The position numbers and the translations under genes are program-made. 44,843 bases of DNA. Origin: Bacteroidales bacterium. GTDB lineage: Bacteria > Bacteroidota > Bacteroidia > Bacteroidales > VadinHA17. Of the stretch, positions 1,043-40,930 are shown one piece after another; positions within the stretch are counted from its first letter, which is position 1; each line of letters begins with the position of its first letter. The DNA lies in assembly GCA_003141895.1 (NCBI GenBank), contig PLNT01000011.1:1-44843 (forward strand), written 5' to 3'. The notes under the pieces were generated by a model. It saw nothing but the letters and a program-made list of their open reading frames with translations. It did no database searches and was not told the origin of the DNA.

Positions 1043-3517
1043 ATGTTATATCTTAAAAACAGGTTGCCAGTTTCTTTTCTTTTCCTGATTATTTTATCAA
1101 ACCATTCATTCGTCTTCTGTCAGCAACTTTCACTAAAAGTTGCAGGCGATGATAAGGCAGGTTATCATGTTGATATATACAATGGCAATCAATTAGTGGT
1201 TACCAATAAGGAAGAATTCTCACTGCAAATGTTTAATCTTGATTTCAGTACCGTTGCAAACGTGCAACAATGGAAAGGCCAGGAATGGACAGGTAACGAA
1301 AAGAGCATCACTTTAAAAAGAGATTCTTACGTAAAAGAGTTCGATGCAAATCTGTCTGTTAATGTGACTTACCAGGTGGTTAGTTCTAATATCATAAAAA
1401 AGACGGTTGAGTTGTTTCAGCCATCCATGCCGGGAATGTATTATATACTTCAACAAACTGCCAGGCCTGCAGAAAAACCCAAACGATACGTAACATTTGA
1501 ATACGATAGTTTTCCCGGTGGCTTTGTACATGAAATGTTCCCTTCAGCAGGCTTTATTACCCAGGACAATAATGTAGTTGGTTTTTTAACAGAAGCAGGT
1601 TATAAAAATCAATATACAAGAAATACACGGCGCCGGTTTAGCGGACGTGGAGGTGGTTTTGTTGGTTGGCGAAAGTTGCCTGATCCTAATTTATTTTCTG
1701 TTGCCGGTTTATCAGACAGAGCACAAGATAATAATTACATTAAACAAACATTTGGTGAAATGTACAACCTTGATGCCGGTGCAGAAATCATATTAAAAAC
1801 ACCTGCTGCCTATCAAAAACAAGGCAATGCGGAAGTGGAGTTTGAGAAAGGGCTTATTTCAATAACCGGCCATCAGGGAGACAGGGCCGGGATTGAATTT
1901 ATTGCACCATTTAAAGGTCAGAGCGTGTACACCATTTCATTTTTATGTAAAGGGAACACACCTTTGGCATTAAAATTATTTAGAGTCAGGGAAGGCCAAA
2001 AAACCGTTGAACTGGAAGATGGGATAAAGTACATTGATAACTTTCCTACAGAAGAAAACGAATGGACGCTTTTTAAAGGAAGCATATTAGTGCCTTATAT
2101 TGAAAATGATAGTGTATCCATGTTTATTGGTACTCAATCAGGAAAGGAATGTAAGCTACAAATAAAAGATCTGCAATTTATAGAACACCAACCACAACGC
2201 GAGCCTTACAACATACTTCCGCTAGGTGACAAAGTGGAGAAAACTACCTGGGTTTTTGTTGAACCATGGAAATCGCATCAACAATTTATGATCTCTTCAC
2301 AGTCACGGTTAGCCGAAGGGAAAGGCTTTAAAGGATCGCTGATAGAAAAAATGTTATATGCCAACTTCAATATGCTTACCTGGATTACTGATATTAAGGA
2401 CTTTACGCCGTTTAATGTGCCAAATATGAATTATGCACCGGACATGTATAACAGGGATTCTTTTTTTTCTGCCATAGCAACTTACAATAAAGAGTTGAAT
2501 CTTTCCATCTGGGAAAAATGGGGTAAAACACAAACTCCCAAAGGCTGTATTGGTACCATTATAACTCCGCTTATGGGATCGGTAGAAGCAAAAGACAACG
2601 AAGCCACCATCGAATGGCTGATCTGGGCAATGATGAACAAACGTCGTTTTGGCATTACACTTCCACAGGAAAAAATTAAAAAATCGGTTGATTATGTGCT
2701 GAATGAATTTGATTCCGACAGAGACGGAAAATGCAAATCACATTTTTCTTTGAGACAGATAGATATTGTTGATTTTAATCCTAAAACAGACAGGCTTGGT
2801 GTTAACCAGGGAATGCTGGCAATCGCATTAAGAACAATAAAAGAACTGGGTTTTGATATTCCCGAAGAGTATATCCAAAAGGCTGAAAAAGAATATCGGA
2901 ATTTTTACGATACAAAAAGGAAACATTTACTGTTCGACCGGAACTTCCCCGACATCATTTCTCTTACCGACCTGGAACCGGAATTCTTTTCTTTATGGTT
3001 ATTCAACAGGCCAATGCTAACAGATGAAATGGTAATAAATCATTTGGATCAAATTCCCATTCTGAATAAAGTACCCGACTCCCCTCACCCGGAATATGGT
3101 ACGACTGCCCCCATTTTAATAAGGTTAACAAGTGATGCGAAAGGATTTGCCTATCTAAGTGGTGATTATCAGCCTTTTGATAAATTTGGTGAAGAAAACT
3201 ATAGCAACGGGAAAAGTGATGGATTTTATTATAATGGCGGCAGTTGGTTCAGAGCGGAGTATTGCGCTTATGTGGTAGGATTAAGACACGGTTGGAAGAA
3301 AGCAACCATTTTGATGGAAAACAGGGTGTGGGCAGAAATTTACCTTAATCCCAAATGGCCATTTAGTAAAGAATTTATACCTACAAAATGGACCACAACA
3401 GATAGCTGGTGGCCATCTACCAAAGAATTATGCTGGAATGTTTTTGTACTAATGGCAGATGAAGTGGCAGGATTGAGAACTCCTGATATGGATCCTGATT
3501 ATAAAAAAAACAACTAA
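1043..3517 (+). CDS. Large secreted protein with a six-hairpin glycosidase-like C-terminal region
   Basis: The protein has 824 residues. A signal peptide ends near residue 26 (LSNHSFVFCQQ). Residues of about 30-400 look beta-rich, like the N-terminal sandwich domains of large glycosidases. From about 430 the sequence becomes helical and aromatic: a DMYNRDSFFSAIATYNKEL segment, then EATIEWLIWAMMNKRRFG, GVNQGMLAIALRTIKELG, and a glycine- and aromatic-rich YYNGGSWFRAEYCAYVVGLRHGW near the end. Repeating helices with acidic residues after aromatic turns are typical of (alpha/alpha)6-barrel enzymes. I cannot assign a GH family or catalytic residues. It is a stand-alone plus-strand gene, convergent with the glycosyltransferase pair downstream. 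Polysaccharide breakdown in the periplasm or at the cell surface is an inference. Confidence 0.6.
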   Translation: MLYLKNRLPVSFLFLIILSNHSFVFCQQLSLKVAGDDKAGYHVDIYNGNQLVVTNKEEFSLQMFNLDFSTVANVQQWKGQEWTGNEKSITLKRDSYVKEFDANLSVNVTYQVVSSNIIKKTVELFQPSMPGMYYILQQTARPAEKPKRYVTFEYDSFPGGFVHEMFPSAGFITQDNNVVGFLTEAGYKNQYTRNTRRRFSGRGGGFVGWRKLPDPNLFSVAGLSDRAQDNNYIKQTFGEMYNLDAGAEIILKTPAAYQKQGNAEVEFEKGLISITGHQGDRAGIEFIAPFKGQSVYTISFLCKGNTPLALKLFRVREGQKTVELEDGIKYIDNFPTEENEWTLFKGSILVPYIENDSVSMFIGTQSGKECKLQIKDLQFIEHQPQREPYNILPLGDKVEKTTWVFVEPWKSHQQFMISSQSRLAEGKGFKGSLIEKMLYANFNMLTWITDIKDFTPFNVPNMNYAPDMYNRDSFFSAIATYNKELNLSIWEKWGKTQTPKGCIGTIITPLMGSVEAKDNEATIEWLIWAMMNKRRFGITLPQEKIKKSVDYVLNEFDSDRDGKCKSHFSLRQIDIVDFNPKTDRLGVNQGMLAIALRTIKELGFDIPEEYIQKAEKEYRNFYDTKRKHLLFDRNFPDIISLTDLEPEFFSLWLFNRPMLTDEMVINHLDQIPILNKVPDSPHPEYGTTAPILIRLTSDAKGFAYLSGDYQPFDKFGEENYSNGKSDGFYYNGGSWFRAEYCAYVVGLRHGWKKATILMENRVWAEIYLNPKWPFSKEFIPTKWTTTDSWWPSTKELCWNVFVLMADEVAGLRTPDMDPDYKKNN

Positions 3518-9809: not shown

Positions 9810-11522
9810 ATGAGGCTATTACCGGATATAGTTTCCTATGAAGAACGGCTAAAAAGTTTTGACTGGTCCCTGGCAGTAACAGAATTAGGGTACGTCAAGG
9901 AAGACATAATCAATATCGGATGGTACTGTTCCGACAGGATTTGTCTAAAAGGGAATGCCGATAAAATCGCACTCTATTATGAAAGCTTCGGCGGTACTGA
10001 AAAAAGTTTTACTTTCAACGATGTACGGCTGACAAGTAATACTATAGGAAATTTTCTTATTAATCTCGGGTTGAAAAATGAAGACAGGATTTGTCTTTTT
10101 ATGGACAGGATACCTGAATTATATTTTTCTTTCCTCGGAATCCTGAAGATTGGAGCTATTGTCCAGCCATTGTTCTCCGCATTTGGAGATGAATCACTTT
10201 ATATCAGGCTGGAAAATGCACAAACCCGTGCCATTATAACTCAAAGGAAGCATCTACCAAAAGTCAGAAAAATCAGTCACAAGTTACCTTTTCTCGAATA
10301 TGTCATTGTAGTTGATCCGGTCAAGGGAAAGAGTTTGGAGAAAAATGAGGTTGCTTTCATCCTTCATGAGACTCCTTCCGTTGAAGATTTTAAAATTTTC
10401 CCGACAAGGGCTGAATCACCATCAGTTTTGCATTATACTTCCGGAACTACCGGTCAGCCTAAAGGTGTAGAACATGTTCATTATTCACTTATTTCACAAT
10501 ATCTCACTGCCAAATGGGTACTTGACCTTCACGACAATGATATTTACTGGTGCACAGCTGATCCGGGTTGGGTAACAGGCACCTCCTACGGAATTATCGG
10601 TCCGTGGAGTCTGGGGATCACCCAGTGTGTTCTGGATGCGGGATTTTCGGCGCAGGCATGGTATAAATTTATTGAGAAATATAAAGTCTCGGTGTGGTAT
10701 ACAGCACCTACCGCTATCAGATCACTGATGAAAGCTGGTAAGGAGGTTGTCGAAAGTTTTGACCTTTCAAGTTTACGTCACCTTTCAAGCGTTGGAGAAC
10801 CTCTGAATTCAGAAGCAGTTGTCTGGTCCGGAAAAGTATTTGGCAAACAATTCCATGACACATTCTGGCAAACAGAAACAGGTTCTATAATGATATCCAA
10901 TTACATCGGTATGAAAATAAAACCAGGATCTATGGGAAAACCATTTCCAGGTATAGTTGGGGTTGTGCTTGATCCAAAAACATTTGAACCTGTCCCGGAA
11001 CCTGGTAAAGTTGGATTGATAGCTTTTAAACCCGGCTGGCCCGCTATGATGAGAGGCTATTGGAATAATCATGAAAAATACAGGGAGAAGTTTGTTAATG
11101 GATGGTATCTTACAGGTGATAAAGCAAGTATCGATAATGAAGGCTACTTCTGGTTTATCGGAAGGGATGATGATGTTATCAATACAGCCGGCCACCTTGT
11201 TAGTCCTTTTGAAGTTGAATCAGCACTCCTTGAACATCCCGCGGTTGCAGAATCTGCGGTAGTGGCAAAACCCGATGAAATAAATATGGAAGTGGTGAAA
11301 GCCTTTGTAACTCTGAAACCCGGAATTATACCTGACAAGGAACTTGAACTCGATATAATGAACTTCATCAGGAGAAAATTATCTCCTATGGCCATGCCTC
11401 AGGAAATCGAATACATGGATAAACTTCCAAAAACCAGAAGTGGTAAGATAATGAGGAGAGTGCTTCGTGCTAAGGAGTGGGGCGAAGAAATTGGGGATGT
11501 TTCAACACTTGAAGATGATTAA
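9810..11522 (+). CDS. Acetyl-CoA-synthetase-like AMP-forming acyl ligase of a Dlt-like cassette
   Basis: The protein has 570 residues in the ANL adenylation superfamily. It carries the P-loop YTSGTTGQPKGVEH from residue 209, the ACS-type YWCTADPGWVTGTSYGI, DTFWQTETG with Trp353, GWYLTGDKASID, GRDDDVINTAGHLVSP, and the C-terminal catalytic lysine K546 in KTRSGKIMRR. The TADPGW and WQTETG blocks point to an acetyl-CoA synthetase type enzyme. The pocket tryptophan suggests a short acyl substrate such as acetate or propionate. It is cytoplasmic. The next gene is a stand-alone carrier protein, 49 nt downstream, so the acyl group may be passed to the carrier's phosphopantetheine rather than only to CoA. 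An ordinary short-form acetate-CoA ligase is the alternative. First gene of the four-gene unit. Confidence 0.85.
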   Translation: MRLLPDIVSYEERLKSFDWSLAVTELGYVKEDIINIGWYCSDRICLKGNADKIALYYESFGGTEKSFTFNDVRLTSNTIGNFLINLGLKNEDRICLFMDRIPELYFSFLGILKIGAIVQPLFSAFGDESLYIRLENAQTRAIITQRKHLPKVRKISHKLPFLEYVIVVDPVKGKSLEKNEVAFILHETPSVEDFKIFPTRAESPSVLHYTSGTTGQPKGVEHVHYSLISQYLTAKWVLDLHDNDIYWCTADPGWVTGTSYGIIGPWSLGITQCVLDAGFSAQAWYKFIEKYKVSVWYTAPTAIRSLMKAGKEVVESFDLSSLRHLSSVGEPLNSEAVVWSGKVFGKQFHDTFWQTETGSIMISNYIGMKIKPGSMGKPFPGIVGVVLDPKTFEPVPEPGKVGLIAFKPGWPAMMRGYWNNHEKYREKFVNGWYLTGDKASIDNEGYFWFIGRDDDVINTAGHLVSPFEVESALLEHPAVAESAVVAKPDEINMEVVKAFVTLKPGIIPDKELELDIMNFIRRKLSPMAMPQEIEYMDKLPKTRSGKIMRRVLRAKEWGEEIGDVSTLEDD

Positions 11523-11571
11523 GAATAAATAACCGCAATCCACAGAATAAATACTTATTAAAATAAGAATT

Positions 11572-11832
11572 ATGGAAAAGATGAATCAGGATGAAATGAA
11601 AAATCTTGTATTGAACTATTTGACAAAAGAATACCTTGAAGATGTTGATGAAGAAATAACCTTTGATACCCCATTAATATCCTCAGGTTATGTAGATTCC
11701 TTTTCAATGATTTCATTACTTGTATTTCTTGAAAACACATTCAAAATAAAGATTCCGGGCAGTAAGGCCACGCCTGAGGCGTTCGATACGATTAACAGAA
11801 TAATTGCTCTTGTAAATCAATACTATGTATAA
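11572..11832 (+). CDS. Acyl carrier protein of the acylation cassette
   Basis: The protein has 86 residues, the usual length of a free carrier protein. The phosphopantetheine attachment serine is Ser43 in the motif GYVDSFSMISLLVFLENTF, preceded by Asp42 as in ACP and DltC. Acidic helices (EDVDEEITFD) surround it. The motif is DSFS rather than the DSLD/DSLT usual in fatty-acid AcpP, which suggests a specialised carrier. It lies between the AMP ligase and the MBOAT gene, 111 nt before the latter. The likely role is to carry the activated acyl group to the membrane acyltransferase, as DltC does. A phosphopantetheinyl transferase would be needed from elsewhere in the genome. Confidence 0.88.
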   Translation: MEKMNQDEMKNLVLNYLTKEYLEDVDEEITFDTPLISSGYVDSFSMISLLVFLENTFKIKIPGSKATPEAFDTINRIIALVNQYYV

Positions 11833-11943
11833 TTATTAATGGTTGCTAAACTATATTTAGTTTTCCCCGATCCTTTGAAAACACTTCGGGTTTGCATTAT
11901 TGGTATCAATTAAAACCCAAAAAAAAAATATTATAAAATAGTA

Positions 11944-13425
11944 ATGTCATTTAATTCAATCGAATTTGCAATATTCTTACCAATAGTATTTATCGCTTAT
12001 TGGCTGTTAAAAAACAAGAACCTCAGATATCAGAATATCCTGTTATTGATTGCCAGCTATGTTTTTTATGGCTGGTGGGATCTGAGATTATTATCTCTGT
12101 TAATAATACTGTCTGTTTCAAATTACTTAATTGGTATCTATATAAATAAAAATGAAATTGACAGGAAACGGAAAAATTGGATGATAGCTGGCCTGGTTAT
12201 CAATCTTGGAGTTCTTGTTATTTTCAAATACTTTAACTTTTTTATTGACAGTTTCATTGATTTACTGTCACTTGCCGGTTATAATCTGCCAAGATCCACT
12301 ACAAAAATTATACTCCCGGTAGGCATCAGCTTTTACGTATTCTTATCGTTAAGCTACATACTTGATATTTATAAAAGAACTTTGAATGCGGATAAAAATA
12401 TCATAGAAGTTCTGTTATCCCTGGGGTTTTTCCCAATAATTCTTGCTGGTCCTATTCAAAGACCTTCAACACTGATCCCCCAGATATCCCAAAAGAGAGA
12501 ATTTAATTATGATCAGACATTTGATGGTTTAGGACAGATCCTTTGGGGTCTGTTTGTTAAGGTTGTTATAGCTGATAATCTTGCACTTTATGCTGATGAT
12601 TTTTTTCACAATTATTCAAATTATTCCGGCAGTACATTACTTCTTGGAGCAGTATTTTATACTATTCAGATTTATGCAGATTTTTCAGGGTATTCAAATA
12701 TGGCAATCGGTGTCGCAAAGCTATTTGGGTTCAGCCTGATGAGAAATTTTGCGTATCCTTATTTCTCACGTGATATAACCGAATTCTGGAAACGCTGGCA
12801 CATATCTCTGACAACATGGTTTCGTGATTATTTATTCTTACCCCTCTCTTTTGCTGTTTCATGGAAGATCAAAGGCAGTAAAGTTTTTTATATCAAGACG
12901 GATCTTTTCATTTATATTGTAGCAAGTACGGTAACCTGGTTCCTTACCGGTCTCTGGCATGGCGCTAATTATACATATATTCTCTGGGGGATGATTCATG
13001 GTTTATTGTTGATTGTTTATCATATACAAAGGAATCCCAGAAAGAAACTTTTTAAAAAAATAGGAATTACAAATGATCATTTGGTCATTAGAATTTTTGA
13101 AACCATAATTACCCTGTTTGTGGTTATTATTGCATGGATTTTTTTCAGGGCCGATAATATTTCAATTGCGATAAAATATCTGTCGAATATGTTCTCATCT
13201 TCTCTTTTCACTTATCCGACAATTTTCCCTGTTGATTTAATTGTCATAATTCTATTGTTCATTATGACGGAGTGGATATCAAGAGAAAAACTACATCCAT
13301 TTCAGTTTGACAGCAATAAGAAACTAAATATTGTTTTACGTCCGGTTTTAATTTCAATAGTAATCTGGGCTATAATTTTATGGGGTGCTTTTAAAAATAA
13401 AGAATTTATCTATTTCCATTTTTAA
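11944..13425 (+). CDS. MBOAT-family membrane O-acyltransferase (AlgI/DltB-like)
   Basis: The protein has 493 residues and about a dozen membrane helices. Hallmarks are the N-terminal FNSIEFAIFLPIVFIAYWLL, ILPVGISFYVFLSLSYILDIY, the FPIILAGPIQRP loop, DFSGYSNMAIGVAKLFGF, FWKRWHISLTTWFRDYLF, and the catalytic core LWHGANYTYILWGMIHG, with His339 and His352. These match AlgI-type alginate acetyltransferases and DltB. MBOATs of this type carry an acyl group through the inner membrane and pass it to an extracytoplasmic partner or glycan. The SGNH-like gene starts 14 nt downstream, the usual partner arrangement. With ACP and ligase genes upstream, the donor is probably acyl-ACP. Confidence 0.92.
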   Translation: MSFNSIEFAIFLPIVFIAYWLLKNKNLRYQNILLLIASYVFYGWWDLRLLSLLIILSVSNYLIGIYINKNEIDRKRKNWMIAGLVINLGVLVIFKYFNFFIDSFIDLLSLAGYNLPRSTTKIILPVGISFYVFLSLSYILDIYKRTLNADKNIIEVLLSLGFFPIILAGPIQRPSTLIPQISQKREFNYDQTFDGLGQILWGLFVKVVIADNLALYADDFFHNYSNYSGSTLLLGAVFYTIQIYADFSGYSNMAIGVAKLFGFSLMRNFAYPYFSRDITEFWKRWHISLTTWFRDYLFLPLSFAVSWKIKGSKVFYIKTDLFIYIVASTVTWFLTGLWHGANYTYILWGMIHGLLLIVYHIQRNPRKKLFKKIGITNDHLVIRIFETIITLFVVIIAWIFFRADNISIAIKYLSNMFSSSLFTYPTIFPVDLIVIILLFIMTEWISREKLHPFQFDSNKKLNIVLRPVLISIVIWAIILWGAFKNKEFIYFHF

Positions 13426-13439
13426 GTAAAAACGGAACA

Positions 13440-14435
13440 GTGATTAAGAAGGTAATACTATATGTAATAGCATTTATTGTTGTTGGTGAGCTAATGATTC
13501 GTTTTGACAAGTCTTTCTTAATCATGGGAGATAAACGAGTTGTTAAAATACCTACAAACATTGAGTTAACCCCTGAATATGAATTAATCCAGAATAATTC
13601 ATTTAACCCTCTTCAGAATGATTTCAAAATAATGGTAATTGGTGATTCCTATATTTTCGGAGGAGGTATTGAATTTAAAGATAATTTTTCTCAAAACTTA
13701 AAAAGAATGATCAATTCTCAAAAGGGGAATTTTGAGAATTGTTGGGTATTAGATGTTTCCAAGCCAAGCTCTAATACCTTAGATAATAATATTACATATT
13801 TTGAATTTGTAAATCGTTTTAAACCTGATGTTGTTATTATTGGATATAACCTTAATGATATCGAGGGTAATTTGCAAAAGGTTAACAACGAAGTATCGGT
13901 GTCAGATTTTATTAAAGAACAAAAAACATCCACCGCGGAAGAAAAAAGATTAATCAGCAAAATATATGATATCATTTATACATCTGAATTAATACATTTT
14001 GTATTACATGAGACTCATAAACAATTAAAAGCAGTTGGCATCATTGTACCCGGAAGTGAATTTGATCTAATGTTAAAAAGTTATTGGCAAAATGGTGATA
14101 ATTGGCAACAATCTAAAATTTTGCTGAAAGAAATAATCGATCATTCAAAAGAAAACAATATACAGCTGATCGTTTATCAGTTTCCGGAAATGGACCTGAT
14201 AGAACATCAGAAGCTCTTCACAAAAAGCAGCGCATCAATAAAATCATTTTTCGATGGTTTCCCTTCAGTATATTTTATTAACGGTAATGACCAGTTCAAA
14301 AATGAAAAATCTAAAGATTATGTTCTTTCAAAGTATGATGGACATCCAAATGAAAAAGCGCATAAAAAAATAGCAGAAAGAGTTTTTGACCTGATTAAGG
14401 AAACAAACAAAGCTTACAAACCCGGGGATAAATAA
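13440..14435 (+). CDS. Membrane-anchored SGNH hydrolase-like acyltransferase partner (DltD/AlgJ-like position)
   Basis: The protein has 331 residues with a GTG start at 13440, 14 nt after the MBOAT stop. An N-terminal hydrophobic helix (residues 4-17) anchors the domain outside the inner membrane. The SGNH pattern is complete: Ser70 in VIGDSYIFGGGI (block I), Asn in GYNLNDIEGN (block III region), and Asp300/His302 in KYDGHPNEKAHKK (block V). In alginate and Dlt systems, SGNH-like partners receive the acyl group from the MBOAT and place it on the polymer. This protein probably does the same here. The intact triad means it could also be an esterase. The target glycan cannot be inferred. Confidence 0.82.
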   Translation: MIKKVILYVIAFIVVGELMIRFDKSFLIMGDKRVVKIPTNIELTPEYELIQNNSFNPLQNDFKIMVIGDSYIFGGGIEFKDNFSQNLKRMINSQKGNFENCWVLDVSKPSSNTLDNNITYFEFVNRFKPDVVIIGYNLNDIEGNLQKVNNEVSVSDFIKEQKTSTAEEKRLISKIYDIIYTSELIHFVLHETHKQLKAVGIIVPGSEFDLMLKSYWQNGDNWQQSKILLKEIIDHSKENNIQLIVYQFPEMDLIEHQKLFTKSSASIKSFFDGFPSVYFINGNDQFKNEKSKDYVLSKYDGHPNEKAHKKIAERVFDLIKETNKAYKPGDK

Positions 14436-24175: not shown

Positions 24176-26590
24176 TTAAACTCCGGAATTAAGCAATCTT
24201 CCAATATGCAATTCTTTTTGTGCTTTTGAAAGATACTCAAATACAGGCAGATTGCGAATCTCACTGACATTTTTCTGTTTGTTTACGTTTACAATAACAA
24301 TATCGCCCTGACCTTTACCATATTCTCCTCTGAAATCATAAAATCCCCCCATAATTGTAAGCTCTCCTGTTTGTACCAGTTCTTTATACTTTTTGCATGC
24401 TATATTTACCTGGTAATCGATGTTCTTTTCAATTACATGGCACTGAAGATTTTCAAAATCCTTGCATTCAGTATTTTCTTTTATAATAGGCTGCAAAAAG
24501 TCAAGTTCGTGCTTAATGCCATATGATTCCTTGTCAAACCCTTCAAGGTATGCTTTGATAGCTCCGCAGTCAGAATGTCCCAGGAATAACAATAACGGCG
24601 TTTTCAGGTGATAAATACCGTAATCGACAGAGCCTTCGGTCGACAATATCTGGTTACCGATGTTCTGGATAGAAAAAACTCTGTTGGAAGTATCCGGCAT
24701 CAATGCATTAAGAGGTACCCGCGAATCGGAGCATGTAACAAGGGTAATATAAGGTTTCTGTTCAAAACTAAAACTTTCGAAATACTCGCGTGGATGTGTT
24801 TGCGTAAAATAGTTATTACCGAATATAATATGTGAGACTATTTCAGAGGTAAGTAATTTAAGAGGCTTGACGGGTGCTTTTTTAATGTCCGGCTCTATAT
24901 CACTTACTGAAGTTACAACAACATCATGAAGTGTGTCACGCCGGCTAACATGACCAAGCAAATGTTCAATATCCTCAAGTCTTAAAATATCGCGAACTTC
25001 TGAATGGGCTTCAACAACCTTTAACGCAATTCCCTTGCATTGAAGATTATCATAAAGACGCTTAATAAGCCTGGCTCCGCTTGAATCGATCGTCGCTGAG
25101 GTGCTAAGGTCAAAAATTACAGTTTTTAGTGATACATCGGAGCACATCACTTTGGCCCAGACAACACGATAAATATATGCCACATTAAAATATACAAGTG
25201 GCGATTCGACCCTGAAGAGAATGACACCCGGAAGAAGTTCATTATCGGGGTGCCTTTTAATATCGGTATATCTGTTTGTTCCGGGAATCCTACCGAGAAA
25301 TGCTACATGAGGACTCGATACACTCCTTATAATAAGAGTCAGTGAAAATAATGCCCCAATCAATACTCCATTCAATATTCCAAATACGAGTACGCTTATC
25401 AGAGCTGTCATTGCAACGACGAAATCAAAACGGTTTACTTTAAACAGCCGTTTCATTTCCTTTATATCGAACAGACCGGTAATTGCGACCAGAACTATAG
25501 ATGCAAGAATCACAGTTGGAAGATTACGGAGTAACCCTGTCAGAAATAAAAGACACACTCCTATGCAAACCGATGCAATAATGAGGGAAACCGGGGTTTT
25601 TGCTCCGGCTTTTTCATTGACGGCTGATTGAGACAAGCCTCCGCTTACCGGATATCCCTGGCCCAATGAGGTTGCCAGATTGGCTATTCCAAGAGCCAGT
25701 AATTCCTGTCTTGCATCTATTTCGTAACCATTCTTCTGAGCAAGAGTTTTTGCTGCAGATACAGTTTCAATGTAAGCTAACAGGAAACATGCAAATGCCA
25801 ATGGCAGAATAGTCTGTATATCCTTCAGATTCAATGATGGTAACCTTAATTTGGGTAATCCGCTAGGTATTATACCAACAGTTTTAAAACCCATTGAACC
25901 TAATGGTGTGAATGTTATAATAAGTACTGAAATTATAACAATAGCCATAGCAACAGGCTTTCCGGGAAATAATTTTTCGCCGGTAATCATGAGAGCAATT
26001 GCCAGAATTCCAAATAGGAATACGGCGGTATTTGTCATTGGCAACTGATTGAAAAGAGTCGTCACCCGGCTGAAAAAACTCTCCCCCCCACCAGGAACCC
26101 CAAAAAGTTTCGGAAACTGGGTCAACCCTATTGCAATTGCTGCTCCTGCTTTGAAGCCAACAAGTACCGTTTCACTTATAAAATTTATAATACTGCTCAG
26201 ACGGATAATATATGCTACAATACTCATTACCGCCAATAAGAGAGCAGATAATGAGGCAAGGTCGAGCCACCGCTGAACATCTCCCTTTGCAAAATTAGCA
26301 AGAGTTACACCAATAAGCATCGATATTGCTGAAGTCGGACCAATAGCGATTTGTTTTCCTGTTCCCAGCAAAGCATAAAAAATCCCACCTAAAAGATAGC
26401 CATAGATTCCATACTGTGGTGGTAACCCCGCCAACGTTGCATAAGCAAGAGAAACCGGAATTGCATAAGCTGTTAATGTTAGCCCTGAAACTGTGTCACT
26501 GCCTAAAAATCCCAAAGAATATTCAGGAAGCCACTTCATGCCTGGAATATGTTTTTGCAATTTCCCTTTTAAATAATTTTTAACGCTCAT
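24176..26590 (-). CDS. SulP anion transporter fused to STAS and beta-carbonic anhydrase domains
   Basis: The protein has 804 residues in three parts. Residues of about 10-410 are the SulP membrane domain (TLTAYAIPVSLAYATLAGLPPQYGIYG, GKQIAIGPTSAISMLIG, GYPVSGGLSQSAVNEKAGAKTP). Residues of about 430-560 are a STAS domain (VIFDLSTSATIDSSGARLIKRLY). Residues of about 580-800 are a beta-class carbonic anhydrase with the zinc ligands Cys620, His672 and Cys675 and the Asp622-Arg624 dyad (TCSDSRVP, GHSDCGAI). All catalytic residues are present. The fusion suggests a bicarbonate transporter coupled to CO2/bicarbonate interconversion on the cytoplasmic side; SulP-carbonic anhydrase fusions have been described before. 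Sulfate transport is the alternative. No sulfate-assimilation gene is nearby. Confidence 0.92.
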   Translation of the reverse strand: MSVKNYLKGKLQKHIPGMKWLPEYSLGFLGSDTVSGLTLTAYAIPVSLAYATLAGLPPQYGIYGYLLGGIFYALLGTGKQIAIGPTSAISMLIGVTLANFAKGDVQRWLDLASLSALLLAVMSIVAYIIRLSSIINFISETVLVGFKAGAAIAIGLTQFPKLFGVPGGGESFFSRVTTLFNQLPMTNTAVFLFGILAIALMITGEKLFPGKPVAMAIVIISVLIITFTPLGSMGFKTVGIIPSGLPKLRLPSLNLKDIQTILPLAFACFLLAYIETVSAAKTLAQKNGYEIDARQELLALGIANLATSLGQGYPVSGGLSQSAVNEKAGAKTPVSLIIASVCIGVCLLFLTGLLRNLPTVILASIVLVAITGLFDIKEMKRLFKVNRFDFVVAMTALISVLVFGILNGVLIGALFSLTLIIRSVSSPHVAFLGRIPGTNRYTDIKRHPDNELLPGVILFRVESPLVYFNVAYIYRVVWAKVMCSDVSLKTVIFDLSTSATIDSSGARLIKRLYDNLQCKGIALKVVEAHSEVRDILRLEDIEHLLGHVSRRDTLHDVVVTSVSDIEPDIKKAPVKPLKLLTSEIVSHIIFGNNYFTQTHPREYFESFSFEQKPYITLVTCSDSRVPLNALMPDTSNRVFSIQNIGNQILSTEGSVDYGIYHLKTPLLLFLGHSDCGAIKAYLEGFDKESYGIKHELDFLQPIIKENTECKDFENLQCHVIEKNIDYQVNIACKKYKELVQTGELTIMGGFYDFRGEYGKGQGDIVIVNVNKQKNVSEIRNLPVFEYLSKAQKELHIGRLLNSGV

Positions 26591-26804: not shown

Positions 26805-28343
26805 TTAATATAGAATTGCCCCTACCTGCCAGCTACCATTTTGATTTGCAACTGCCGGTGTAGATCCTGCTGACCAGGAGGCATTTGTCGATAATCCTGC
26901 CTGCCAGGCGGCACCTAGGTCAGTACCATAATCAAGTCGAGATGAAGGAACAAAGTCATTGAGATTATTGAAGTTCGGATTTACTACTACTGAATGAGTA
27001 TCATATCCTAATGCCTGCCACTCAGCGAATGTCTTTTTTTTGCCCAAATAATTGAAGACCGGAGTACCCGCCTCACACCAGAAAATATTATAATCAGATT
27101 CAAATCCATCCATATCCTGTGAATCTTCGATTGTAATATTAAAAATCTGGTTCACGGTATAGAAAATATTATTTTTAATTTTAGCACCCTTGGAATAAGC
27201 TTTGGGTGATAACCCGTCATTGGCAAATACATCAACGATACCATAGCCTGTCCCGGGCTTTGAATTACTGGTAAACTTTACCTCATCGGAATAAAAGGTA
27301 TTATTATAAACCAGAACACCATTCATACCTTTTATAGCCACAGCTATATCGCCGGTGTGGTTTATAATGTTGTAAGCAATCCCACCGGTCGTATAAGTCA
27401 TCCCATTTGATTTAATGACCATTCCGGTTGGAACCCGCAATAAATAATTGTATACGATAATACAATTAATATTATAGCCTGTAAATATACCATGAGTGAT
27501 TGTACTTGCTATATTAGTACCATTCCACGTAAATTTATTACCGGTTATTATTTCTCCATCAAGTTTATTATTATTTTTCCCCGGAGATTCGTCACCACCC
27601 TGTAATAAATACCCTTCAGAATTAACCGATGTAATAGAATTATTACGGAATATCAAATTTATTGCAGTTGAACGAGGGATATTTACCCCACTCCAGTTTG
27701 AGGATGAATTTACATAGGTTTGCCCTTCAATAATAACGGCCCCCGAATTATTACCACTTCCGATTCCACTAATAGCCCCACCGGTAACGGGAGGGGTGGT
27801 AACACTGGTAACGGGAGGGGTGGTAACACCGGTAACGGGAGTTGTTGCACCACCAGTAACGGGGGTGGTAGTACCACTAGTAACGGGAGGGGTGGTAACA
27901 CTAGTACCTGGAGTGGTGGTACTACTAGTACTGGCAGTGCTGGTACTATCAATACTGCCGGTGCTTACAAGTGTAGTAAACTGAAGATCGGAACCATAAG
28001 AGGTACCGGCACTATTTGTTGCATAAGCCCTGGTGTAATAGACTGTCCCCGGATTCAATCCTATAATTATTGTTGTAAATGAACCTGTTCCGGAACCATC
28101 GATGGAACTGCCATTTGCAATTGTCGGATCAAGGGTTGTTGCCCAACAGACTCCCCTTGATGTAACATCAGCATTACCGTCATTTGTAATTTCTCCTCCC
28201 GTTGCTGCAGTTGTCTGGGCTATATCTATTACATCACTTGTTGTAATAGTCGGAGTAGTTGGTTTCTTTTTACAGGAAACAACGAATAGCGATAAGCAGA
28301 ATAATGCAGTAACTATAAACAGAATTTTGAAAGTATTAAACAT
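26805..28343 (-). CDS. Surface lipoprotein: FN3-like domain, repeat linker, parallel beta-helix
   Basis: Starting at the ATG at 28343-28341 gives 512 residues with lipobox VVSC (lipidated Cys24). Residues of about 30-130 resemble a fibronectin-type-III-like module often found repeated in Bacteroidota lipoproteins (GGEITNDGNADVTSRGVCWAT, GLNPGTVYYTRAYATNSAGTSYG). A linker of tandem 8-residue V-T-T-P-P-V-T-S-like units spans about 132-187. The C-terminal 300 residues look like a right-handed beta-helix, with stacked N-rich turns (GIAYNIINHTGDIAVAIKG, VLVYNNTFYS, AKIKNNIFYTVNQIFNI), a fold used by polysaccharide lyases and adhesins. No catalytic motif is clear. It probably binds or cleaves a glycan at the cell surface. 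Confidence 0.75.
   Translation of the reverse strand: MFNTFKILFIVTALFCLSLFVVSCKKKPTTPTITTSDVIDIAQTTAATGGEITNDGNADVTSRGVCWATTLDPTIANGSSIDGSGTGSFTTIIIGLNPGTVYYTRAYATNSAGTSYGSDLQFTTLVSTGSIDSTSTASTSSTTTPGTSVTTPPVTSGTTTPVTGGATTPVTGVTTPPVTSVTTPPVTGGAISGIGSGNNSGAVIIEGQTYVNSSSNWSGVNIPRSTAINLIFRNNSITSVNSEGYLLQGGDESPGKNNNKLDGEIITGNKFTWNGTNIASTITHGIFTGYNINCIIVYNYLLRVPTGMVIKSNGMTYTTGGIAYNIINHTGDIAVAIKGMNGVLVYNNTFYSDEVKFTSNSKPGTGYGIVDVFANDGLSPKAYSKGAKIKNNIFYTVNQIFNITIEDSQDMDGFESDYNIFWCEAGTPVFNYLGKKKTFAEWQALGYDTHSVVVNPNFNNLNDFVPSSRLDYGTDLGAAWQAGLSTNASWSAGSTPAVANQNGSWQVGAILY
27783..27950. repeat. Seven tandem 24-bp repeats coding a Thr/Pro/Val linker
   Basis: I can align seven adjoining 24-bp units from 27783. 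The first two differ at one base (GGTAACGGGAGGGGTGGTAA plus four); later ones diverge. Twenty-four is a multiple of three, so changes in copy number keep the frame and only alter the length of the lipoprotein's linker. Confidence 0.85.
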
Positions 28344-28636
28344 GTTCAAATCGTTCTTTCAGTCAAGGTACTTTTTTAACATACTCATGAGTTATAATTA
28401 TGAGCTTATTAGTCTAATAACAAACTTTTCTTAGATAAGTTGTAATTTTGAATATACTGATGCAGTTTGGTTATTTGCTTACAAATGAATGAAGTAAAGT
28501 GCTGTATTCTATTCCTGAAACAGTTAAGACTTATGTTCAGGCAGGGTATTATCCTCAAAATCCTTGTGTTAGTCGATAAGTGCTGGAACCAAATAATCGA
28601 TCCGGATGTTTTGATTATATTTGAATACATAATCTC

Positions 28637-38554: not shown

Positions 38555-40651
38555 TCAGACTTTAATTACTTTAACAGATTTTCTGAAATCCTTATTATAT
38601 ACCTCAATAAGATAAACTCCGGCCCCCAGGGTACTGATATTTACCGTTGTCTGATAGCGGCAACTCAGTTGTTCTCTGATTTTAATACCTGAACTGTTAA
38701 AAATTTGTATGTTATAAAATGCATCATTATTTAATGCAACATTGAATTCAGTGGTGGTTATTGATGGCCAGACAAATACCTGGGGATCAGCAGTGTAATT
38801 TGATCTTTTCACATACAGATAGATGCTATCACTGGTCTGAACACCACAAGTCCCTGTAACTGTTACCTTGTAAATACCAATATCTGACGCGTTCAGGTTC
38901 TGAAGAAACAATCCGGAGATATTGCTATTACTAATGGCATCACCATCTTTCTGCCATTGATACGTCAAATCGTGTCCTTCCGAAGTTACACTCAAAGTAA
39001 GATCATTCCCAAAAGGAGCTTCCGTATTTGGTGAAACGTTCGTAATTTTGGTAAGAGGATAAATTGTGAGGGTTATCGGATTTGAGGTAACAGTTCCACA
39101 AGAACCGGTAACCTGACATATGTAGGTTCCCGATTCACCAACTGATGAGGTTGGAAAAATCAGTTTGTTTGAGGTACCTGACTGGATAACCTGATTAGCC
39201 TTCAACCATGTGTATCTAAGATTATACCCCTCAACATTTACGAACATAGTTGCCTGAAGTCCGGTGCATAATGCCGTATCAGCCGACTGGGTTAACAACC
39301 TGGTATTAAAGGCAATATTTGCATCGAGTCGTGACCAGTTAGATACTTTATCACTAACTGTTACCCTGAGGATGACATTTACTGAACCAGTGTAAGCAGG
39401 ATTCCAGATTACTGATGCATCTTTTGAATTTCCTGTAATAGCGCCTGCAGAAGCAGGATAAAGAGCCCACTCGTAAACAGTTGCACCTGTAACCACAGGT
39501 ACAGAATATTGACTTGACTCAGTCCCCTGGCAAATTATTGAATCGCCTCTTGGTATAGGTGGTCTGAAATCTATAGATAGTCCTGTATTAGTTTTAATCC
39601 AGTCTATAAAATCAGAAACTCTGGTATAGGCACCATATGTATCGCAGTTTTGACTGCCCCAACTAACAATTCCTGCTAATTTGTATTCCCCAAGGACCGG
39701 AACAACAAGAGGGCCTCCGCTATCACCATTACAGGCATCTTTATTCCCATTGAGAAATCCTGCCATCAGATCAGTTGCAGGAATCGTTGTACCCCATACT
39801 GTTTCAGCCTGCGCAAGCGATATAATAGGAAGCTGGACTTTCTGAAGGGAGGTAGGGAGAACATTCAGATTGACATGGATATATCCCCAACCTGTTACCC
39901 ATGACATAACTCCCGGTATTATTGCTCCCTCTGCAACGTCATTGGCATCAACCAGTTTAATTGGTTTTGCATTTGCAAAATTGATTGTGTCAACTAGTTT
40001 TAAAAGCGCGATGTCATTCAGGAGTGTCTGATCATTATACCCGGAATTTACTATTGCCTGACTTACCTTATAAGTTTCCCCTTCAAGCGGATTCTGGGGA
40101 TTATTTACACCGACAACAACAGACATTTCAGAAGCAGGGATAGTTGCACCTGAATCGTCTTTTGTGCAATGAGCTGCAGTAACTATCCACTTGTTTCCAA
40201 TAATTGAACCTCCGCAGCGGAAATTACCTGAAATAAAATATACCTGCCAGGGAAAATCCGATATAACAGTGCCCGCACCTCCGGTAATTTTTGCATTGAT
40301 GGTTCGTATGCCTGTAAAAAAGGGATATAAATGGTCTCCCTGTCCTATATCTGATTTAATATAAAGGATCGGCTCGTCATTGAGAATTAGTGAAAGAAAA
40401 TTTGTACCTGGATCTATTTTGTCTGAAGCAGAAACTTTCAGATAATAAAATCTGTTTGCTTCAAGACTGAAATTTACAGAATCAAACATCAGATATTCCG
40501 TGCCTGAAAATACTGGTTGATTATGATTATCCAGGATCTGCCACCCGGTTAAGCCAGGATTTTTTGACTGAAGTACTTCAATTATTACCTTTTGGCCAAG
40601 TACTGAAATTGAAAACAGGAATAGCAGGAAAATGAATAAGTATCTTTTCAT
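38555..40651 (-). CDS. Secreted trypsin-like serine protease with Ig-like domains and T9SS tail
   Basis: Starting at the ATG at 40651-40649 gives 698 residues with a signal peptide ending at SVLGQ. An N-terminal domain of about 100 residues precedes the protease and could be a propeptide. The S1 chymotrypsin domain has the full triad: His161 in IVTAAHC, Asp213 in NDIALLKL and Ser311 in CNGDSGGPL. Three beta-sandwich Ig/PKD-like domains follow. The last 80 residues are a T9SS sorting domain (VFVWPSITTTEFNVAL, GVYLIEVYNKDFRKSVKVIKV). It should be secreted across the outer membrane, cleaving proteins outside the cell. Secreted trypsin-like enzymes like this are known in gliding and polymer-degrading Bacteroidota. 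Confidence 0.93.
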   Translation of the reverse strand: MKRYLFIFLLFLFSISVLGQKVIIEVLQSKNPGLTGWQILDNHNQPVFSGTEYLMFDSVNFSLEANRFYYLKVSASDKIDPGTNFLSLILNDEPILYIKSDIGQGDHLYPFFTGIRTINAKITGGAGTVISDFPWQVYFISGNFRCGGSIIGNKWIVTAAHCTKDDSGATIPASEMSVVVGVNNPQNPLEGETYKVSQAIVNSGYNDQTLLNDIALLKLVDTINFANAKPIKLVDANDVAEGAIIPGVMSWVTGWGYIHVNLNVLPTSLQKVQLPIISLAQAETVWGTTIPATDLMAGFLNGNKDACNGDSGGPLVVPVLGEYKLAGIVSWGSQNCDTYGAYTRVSDFIDWIKTNTGLSIDFRPPIPRGDSIICQGTESSQYSVPVVTGATVYEWALYPASAGAITGNSKDASVIWNPAYTGSVNVILRVTVSDKVSNWSRLDANIAFNTRLLTQSADTALCTGLQATMFVNVEGYNLRYTWLKANQVIQSGTSNKLIFPTSSVGESGTYICQVTGSCGTVTSNPITLTIYPLTKITNVSPNTEAPFGNDLTLSVTSEGHDLTYQWQKDGDAISNSNISGLFLQNLNASDIGIYKVTVTGTCGVQTSDSIYLYVKRSNYTADPQVFVWPSITTTEFNVALNNDAFYNIQIFNSSGIKIREQLSCRYQTTVNISTLGAGVYLIEVYNKDFRKSVKVIKV

Positions 40652-40930
40652 GTACAATAAACTATTGCAGAGAGAAAATCTGAAACATACTTTAGCAGGT
40701 TAGTATTCCAATTTTTTGTAAAACTATAATAAATAAAACTTATACAAATAACAGAAAATTCCGGAAGATGTTTTATCCGTCAGAAAATTTCTATGGTAAA
40801 AGATTATAAATTAGTCCAAATGACAAAAATTACCTGATTCCTGTATCTCTATTAATATCAGGTAAAGTCTTCTCTTGCGAAATTATTGAAATAGTTTCAG
40901 CAGTAGGCAAAAATGCCGCAAGAAATGAGG

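Follow-up and report, generated by a model that had tools for sequence, protein, structure and literature searches.

A ligase-carrier pair beside an MBOAT gene: a proposed carrier-fed surface acylation system in a Bacteroidales bacterium

We analyzed four genes at positions 9810 to 14435 of a 44,843-nucleotide stretch of a Bacteroidales bacterium (lineage VadinHA17; GenBank assembly GCA_003141895.1, here genome G000). The whole stretch, contig PLNT01000011.1, is referred to as the window. The genes encode, in order, a ligase of the acetate--CoA-ligase family, a carrier protein, a membrane acyltransferase of the MBOAT family and a probable SGNH acyltransferase. On balance, we favor the reading that they form a carrier-fed surface acylation system, whose front half would derive from a widespread module found elsewhere ahead of a pyridoxal phosphate (PLP) enzyme of the Kbl type. 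Gene content, a conserved ligase-carrier pairing, recurrent linkage to MBOAT genes and the motifs were all observed directly.

RESULTS

The ligase-carrier pair in relatives

The ligase was found in 11 of 62 genomes of the window's genus, 25 of 393 of the order, 6 of 395 of the phylum and 3 of 23 of a second family, with overlap among these draws. Forty-eight distinct ligase loci were read, namely 45 loci together with the window, L118 and L119; L013, L014, L017 and L018, which are the same DNA as L050, L053, L042 and L101, were each counted once. The original prediction paired the ligase with a dedicated carrier, and a carrier gene does lie no more than 600 bases downstream in 44 of the 48 loci (41 of the 45, plus the window, L118 and L119). 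It lies 1.3 and 5.3 kb farther on in two others. The last two have no carrier in the stretch. The carrier is followed by the gene for a 415-amino-acid (aa) protein, hereafter Kbl415, in 39 loci (38 by a 70%-identity rule, plus L062 at 70%), by an MBOAT gene in 5 and by other glycan-locus genes in 2; the two genomes whose stretches lack a carrier encode Kbl415 elsewhere.

The same order emerged from the carrier side. A hidden Markov model search for the carrier covered 18 loci, L052 not among them. A carrier-based genome scan yielded 11 loci in Bacteroidota, Zixiibacteriota, Aminicenantes, Acidobacteriota and Anaerolineales. In all 11 a ligase (71-78% identical) lies upstream of the carrier, at a distance of 5 kb in one, and the next gene after the carrier encodes the 415-aa protein, truncated in two loci by contig ends, and never an MBOAT. 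Kbl415 passes glycine C-acetyltransferase (Kbl) models in both loci scanned, and a gene for holo-acyl carrier protein (holo-ACP) synthase often lies upstream in the Kbl-type clusters. The 415-aa Kbl/BioF-type PLP enzymes that accompany the ligase, the carrier and often this synthase (L013:8252-9499, L022:8350-9597 and other loci) look like carrier-dependent relatives of glycine C-acetyltransferase.

Thus, the conserved unit in relatives is the ligase-carrier pair, mostly with Kbl415, in an order that spans at least four phyla. A conserved four-gene cassette was rejected in that form: all four genes are adjacent in only 4 of the 48 ligase loci, a scarcity that the original prediction had itself listed as counting against it. 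The partial order of ligase, carrier and MBOAT does recur, in four genomes besides that of the window, and is rare (5 of 48 loci).

Loci linked to MBOAT or glycan genes

The five MBOAT-linked loci belong to genomes G000 (the window), G019 (L037), G698 (L110), G855 (L118) and G856 (L119). They span two families and two MBOAT lineages, with carrier-MBOAT gaps of 8 to 111 bases. An SGNH candidate follows the MBOAT in four of the five, the exception being G856. The genes of G698 are separated by just 18, 8 and 10 bases; the MBOAT frame of the G019 cassette is interrupted at an ambiguous base. Two further genomes have the pair in a glycan locus. In G023, an LPG_synthase_TM-type gene follows it in a neighborhood with polysaccharide export genes, and the same contig has an MBOAT gene about 30 kb away. 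In G066, the order is MBOAT (cut by the contig end), a 318-aa gene without a Pfam match, O-antigen ligase, ligase, carrier and glycosyltransferases. The polysaccharide export locus of G023 also holds a second carrier protein (L036:14610-14861), located before an asparagine-synthase-type gene.

Kbl415 is absent from all seven of these genomes, where the best match is 53-55% identical and is a canonical Kbl; in G000, which is 96% complete, the value is 53%. All nine other genomes tested have Kbl415, as a contig-end fragment in G078 and with an internal stop in G082. The seven genomes without it retain intact motifs in both ligase and carrier. In G000, G019, G023 and G066, the genes for a Zn-dehydrogenase and a canonical Kbl, which flank the module in congeners, adjoin without it; the module may have been lost from this site or may never have been there.

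Phylogenetic trees of the ligase were built without L053 and L112, in which the gene is in two pieces, and the 30-row tree was hand-picked from 46 ligases. Although G698, G855 and G856 belong to a family other than the window's, their ligases group with those of the window's genus (13 of 30 rows, support 100/100), G698 being a long branch whose exact placement is unsure. The carriers of the same two groups share SLLVF soon after the DSFS motif (SLLIF in G856); outside them, this site reads SLKR in 28 of 33 rows and SLLV in none, the 33 including one misread row, L051. The simple reading of both patterns is transfer between families. The fewest changes between ligase settings was two in both trees, and a single origin of the non-Kbl ligases was neither shown nor rejected by the AU test (P = 0.224 for 5 of 44 rows and P = 0.152 for 7 of 30 rows). 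No ligase signature dividing the Kbl from the other settings was found under the rule that a position be the same in at least 95% of Kbl rows and differ in at least 3 of 5 others.

The four gene products

The original prediction placed four collinear genes on the plus strand, and all four open reading frames (ORFs) are open and in that arrangement, separated by 49, 111 and 14 bases. The residues it had named are likewise all in place: TADPGW at 249 and WQTETG at 353 in the ligase, Ser43 in the carrier, His339 and His352 in the MBOAT, and Ser70, Asp300 and His302 in the SGNH candidate.

The ligase (9810 to 11522, 570 aa) has AMP-binding and AMP-binding_C Pfam matches. Its top NCBIfam match is the acetate--CoA ligase equivalog NF003313 (PRK04319), passed at 760.2 bits against a cut-off of 729, and the nearest solved chain in the Protein Data Bank (PDB) is an acetyl-CoA synthetase (ACS), 9g79 (E = 6.7e-169). 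The DltA model (TIGR01734/PRK04813) was not among the best 25 of 103 NCBIfam families. We take the acetate pocket of Salmonella ACS to consist of Val310, Thr311, Val386 and Trp414. In an alignment to 2p2f, the window ligase has identical residues at all four positions (V255, T256, V328 and W353), which points to a C2-C3 acid; acetate or propionate is the proposed substrate. The ACS-type character suggested at the outset is supported. Residues specific for CoA or for a carrier, compared by eye on the same alignment, were not decisive.

The carrier (11572 to 11832, 86 aa) bears its predicted phosphopantetheine site, Ser43, in the DSFS motif and matches PF00550 (PP-binding) at 24.8 bits, above the cut-off of 20.8. 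Its best NCBIfam match is the ornithine-lipid carrier model ACP_for_OlsHI, at 52 bits and below the cut-off of 130. DltC came next, but its models were failed as well (41.9 bits against 68, and 27.7 against 52.35 for TIGR01688). The best PDB match is 6cxt (E = 1.9e-10), followed by DltC in 6bug (E = 3.2e-6).

The MBOAT (11944 to 13425, 493 aa) matches PF03062 at 43.3 bits (cut-off, 27) and is homologous to DltB in 6bug (E = 6.5e-23), but it fails the DltB model TIGR04091 (160.6 bits against 375). The catalytic His339 sits in a WHG motif. Residues 488 to 493 read FIYFHF, with Tyr490 inside, a C-terminal motif that the original prediction had not mentioned. According to the cited sections of PMC12148441, the Tyr of such an FXYXXF motif carries the acyl group in PatA, and the motif is supplied by DltX in the Dlt system. 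No DltX-like ORF was found in the window: among its 594 ORFs of at least 20 aa, an FXYXX(F/Y) end occurs on the MBOAT alone. With its own C-terminal Tyr motif and no DltX found, the MBOAT is of the PatA build. Each of the 20 full-length MBOATs used for the tree ends in F-x-Y-x-x-(F/Y).

Standalone MBOATs gave 22 matches in the 62 genus genomes, and the surroundings of 19 were read (those of G015, G030 and G002 were left out). Two are directly preceded by the ACS-type ligase and its carrier, four have a DltA-like ligase and another carrier in the same cluster, one precedes the ligase by two genes, and twelve have neither pair directly upstream. In the 21-row MBOAT tree, the window protein falls in a group of seven (support 100/99). 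Four of these adjoin the pair (the window, G855, G698 and G856) and three do not (G019, G021 and G025). The sister of this group, making nine in all (100/99), consists of two MBOATs whose neighbors are a DltA-like ligase and a carrier; the other two MBOATs with such a ligase lie elsewhere in the tree. The pair-adjacent MBOAT of G019 is of another lineage, near an MBOAT on contig C39 of G000 that stands without the pair. The association with a carrier thus runs through this part of the MBOAT family, though not strictly.

A 997-aa protein of G000 (L066:6862-9855, contig C25) combines an SGNH-like N-terminal half with an MBOAT C-terminal half. MBOAT matches in open frames of more than 700 aa occur in 46 of the 62 genus genomes; domains were checked in the G000 protein only.

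The SGNH candidate (13440 to 14435, 331 aa, GTG start) had been credited with a full catalytic triad. The residues are there, as motifs; the match to Lipase_GDSL_2 (PF13472) stays at 24.0 bits, under the cut-off of 32.9 (E = 6e-5), and the PDB holds no sequence relative at E = 1. Hydropathy indicates a single N-terminal membrane stretch at residues 1 to 23. A profile of ten other MBOAT-linked SGNH candidates gave a weak match (E = 0.001, probability 21%), and a single-sequence fold model was too poor for use (pLDDT, 37.9). The protein had no match to PF04914, the DltD family, at E = 0.001; its counterpart in the G019 cassette passes that model (26.3 bits against 22.7). Among 384 genomes of the order, each scored for at most five candidates, the only homolog at E = 1e-8 was the window's own protein.

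Surroundings in the window

An outer-membrane barrel gene lies upstream of the set, and nitroreductase and GH3 genes (Pfam) lie downstream. Given these neighbors, the set does not belong to a polysaccharide locus. A promoter and terminator search of the window was uninformative, and no terminator-like site was reported inside the carrier-MBOAT gap (11833 to 11943). The GC content is 32.7% for the MBOAT gene and 30.0% for the SGNH candidate, as opposed to 41.1% for the ligase. Elsewhere, the window encodes an 804-aa fusion of sulfate permease, STAS and carbonic anhydrase domains (24176 to 26590), a trypsin-like protease that carries both Ig-like domains and a tail for type IX secretion (38555 to 40657), and two long ORFs of 824 and 514 aa (1043 to 3517 and 26805 to 28349) without a Pfam match at E = 0.001.

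DISCUSSION

In the mechanism that we propose, the ligase would use ATP to convert acetate (or propionate) to acyl-AMP and load the acyl group onto the phosphopantetheine arm at Ser43 of the carrier. At the cytoplasmic face, the MBOAT would take the acyl group from the carrier and pass it, via His339, to Tyr490 of FIYFHF. The membrane-anchored SGNH protein would then move it from Tyr490 to Ser70 and on to a hydroxyl of a surface glycan. We infer the charging step because of the constant ligase-carrier pairing and the precedent of AasR, first annotated as an acyl-CoA synthetase, which loads its partner AcpR rather than CoA (PMC9386255, cited section). Delivery to the MBOAT would follow from the recurrent linkage and from the Dlt system, where DltC feeds the MBOAT DltB (PMC12148441, cited section). 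The identities of the acid and of the glycan are likewise proposed.

The set resembles the Dlt system (DltA, DltC, DltB, DltX and DltD) in having a ligase, a free carrier, an MBOAT and a probable SGNH-type protein in one cluster, and in the proposed carrier thioester donor. Its ligase, however, is of the acetate--CoA-ligase family and not a DltA, the MBOAT itself carries the Tyr motif in place of a separate DltX, and the host is Gram-negative, so the target would not be the teichoic acid of Gram-positive bacteria. Strict membership in the D-alanylation system was rejected, since no DltA, DltC, DltB or DltD model was passed; the "Dlt-like" description holds for the layout. With PatA/PatB, AlgI/AlgJ/AlgX and WssH/WssI, the set shares the MBOAT His and the C-terminal FXYXXF; its SGNH partner is a candidate with a weak family match. 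It differs in the ligase and carrier directly upstream, as the known acetylators are described without a carrier like DltC in the cited sections of PMC12148441. A counterpart of the front half is AasR-AcpR-serine palmitoyltransferase (PMC9386255, cited section), where a dedicated ligase charges a dedicated carrier and both are linked genetically to a Kbl/BioF-superfamily PLP enzyme; the Kbl415 loci show the same kind of linkage. There the acid is long-chain; here the ligase has an ACS-type pocket, the enzyme in relatives is Kbl-type, and in the window MBOAT and SGNH genes stand in the PLP enzyme's place. The cited section of PMC9304779 adds that SulA, a PLP enzyme of a Bacteroidetes, prefers acyl-ACP over acyl-CoA.

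Sets with this layout also exist within the genus (L059:1807-6489, L122:4229-7482, L126:2231-7845 and L127:5452-9176). Two of the four have a sister-group MBOAT, and an SGNH-like gene follows the MBOAT in L059 and L126. They differ in a ligase that resembles amino-acid adenylation and DltA models and in a carrier with DVDGWDSL or DVDGWNSL. Neither an acetyl-carrier-fed MBOAT-SGNH system nor a carrier-linked Kbl was found in the open-access literature, a scope with subscription papers and preprints mostly outside it. The combination of a Dlt-like front end and a PatA-like back end with a ligase of a third family suggests a new arrangement.

Several lines of evidence support a carrier-fed system: the close carrier in 44 of 48 loci with an MBOAT directly after it in 5, the absence of Kbl415 from the seven MBOAT- or glycan-linked genomes but from none of the nine others tested, the intact ligase and carrier motifs in those seven, the sister MBOATs with their neighboring DltA-like ligase and carrier, and, by analogy, the AasR-AcpR and DltC-DltB precedents. 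Several observations weigh on the other side. The NCBIfam model names the ligase an acetate--CoA ligase. Three MBOATs of the window protein's own clade lack the pair directly upstream, and the G019 cassette uses an MBOAT of another lineage whose nearest relative has no pair. The absence of Kbl415 rests on draft genomes, 85-99% complete. The difference in GC content means that the two halves of the set need not share a history, and the identity of the SGNH protein, though probable, is the weakest of the four gene calls. In addition, PatA, of the same MBOAT build, uses acetyl-CoA, and one review gives acyl-CoA preference over ACP as the donor for AT3, the other family (PMC9558356, cited section).

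A rival reading is that of two independent units: a displaced Kbl-pathway pair that serves a PLP enzyme in trans, such as the canonical Kbl at C18:54245, and a PatA-type MBOAT-SGNH system running on acetyl-CoA. The prevalence of Kbl415 after the pair (39 of 48 loci), the 12 of 19 standalone MBOATs without a ligase and carrier directly upstream and the C-terminal motif of an acyl-CoA user all agree with this. We nevertheless consider it unlikely, given that pair and MBOAT adjoin in five genomes, drawn from two families, at distances as short as 8 bases, and that Kbl415 is missing in all seven genomes where the setting is MBOAT or glycan. Simple chance proximity of the four genes is disfavored by the same recurrence in four other genomes.

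The ligase might instead be a plain acetyl-CoA synthetase that boosts acetyl-CoA for the MBOAT, the carrier belonging to another process. Both the equivalog model and the closest solved protein speak for such an enzyme, yet the carrier is its most constant neighbor, many Kbl-type clusters contain a holo-ACP synthase and AasR sets a precedent, which together make the idea improbable. Still less probable, in our judgment, is that the pair supplies acetyl- or propionyl-carrier to a cytoplasmic user, as in sugar N-acylation or fatty-acid priming, with the MBOAT unrelated. In G023 and G066, the carrier is indeed followed by an LPG_synthase_TM-type gene and a glycosyltransferase gene, respectively, and not directly by an MBOAT; in five of the seven genomes without Kbl415, however, it is the MBOAT that follows.

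For carrier-fed acylation, the comparison raises a broader possibility, which we hold tentatively and at somewhat short of even confidence: a portable acetyl-ACP supply module may have been replugged from a PLP alpha-oxoamine synthase to membrane acylation, some Gram-negative MBOAT-SGNH acetylators may run on free acetate via acetyl-ACP and not on acetyl-CoA, and the finished cassette may move between families. In the cited sections of PMC12148441, acetyl-CoA is the donor shown for PatA, the authors infer the same for other MBOAT-SGNH routes, and the Gram-negative acetylators are held to use acetyl-CoA without a carrier. The cassette makes this question of the donor directly testable. It also suggests that an acyl-activation module can swap its client, from amino-acid chemistry to decoration of the cell surface.

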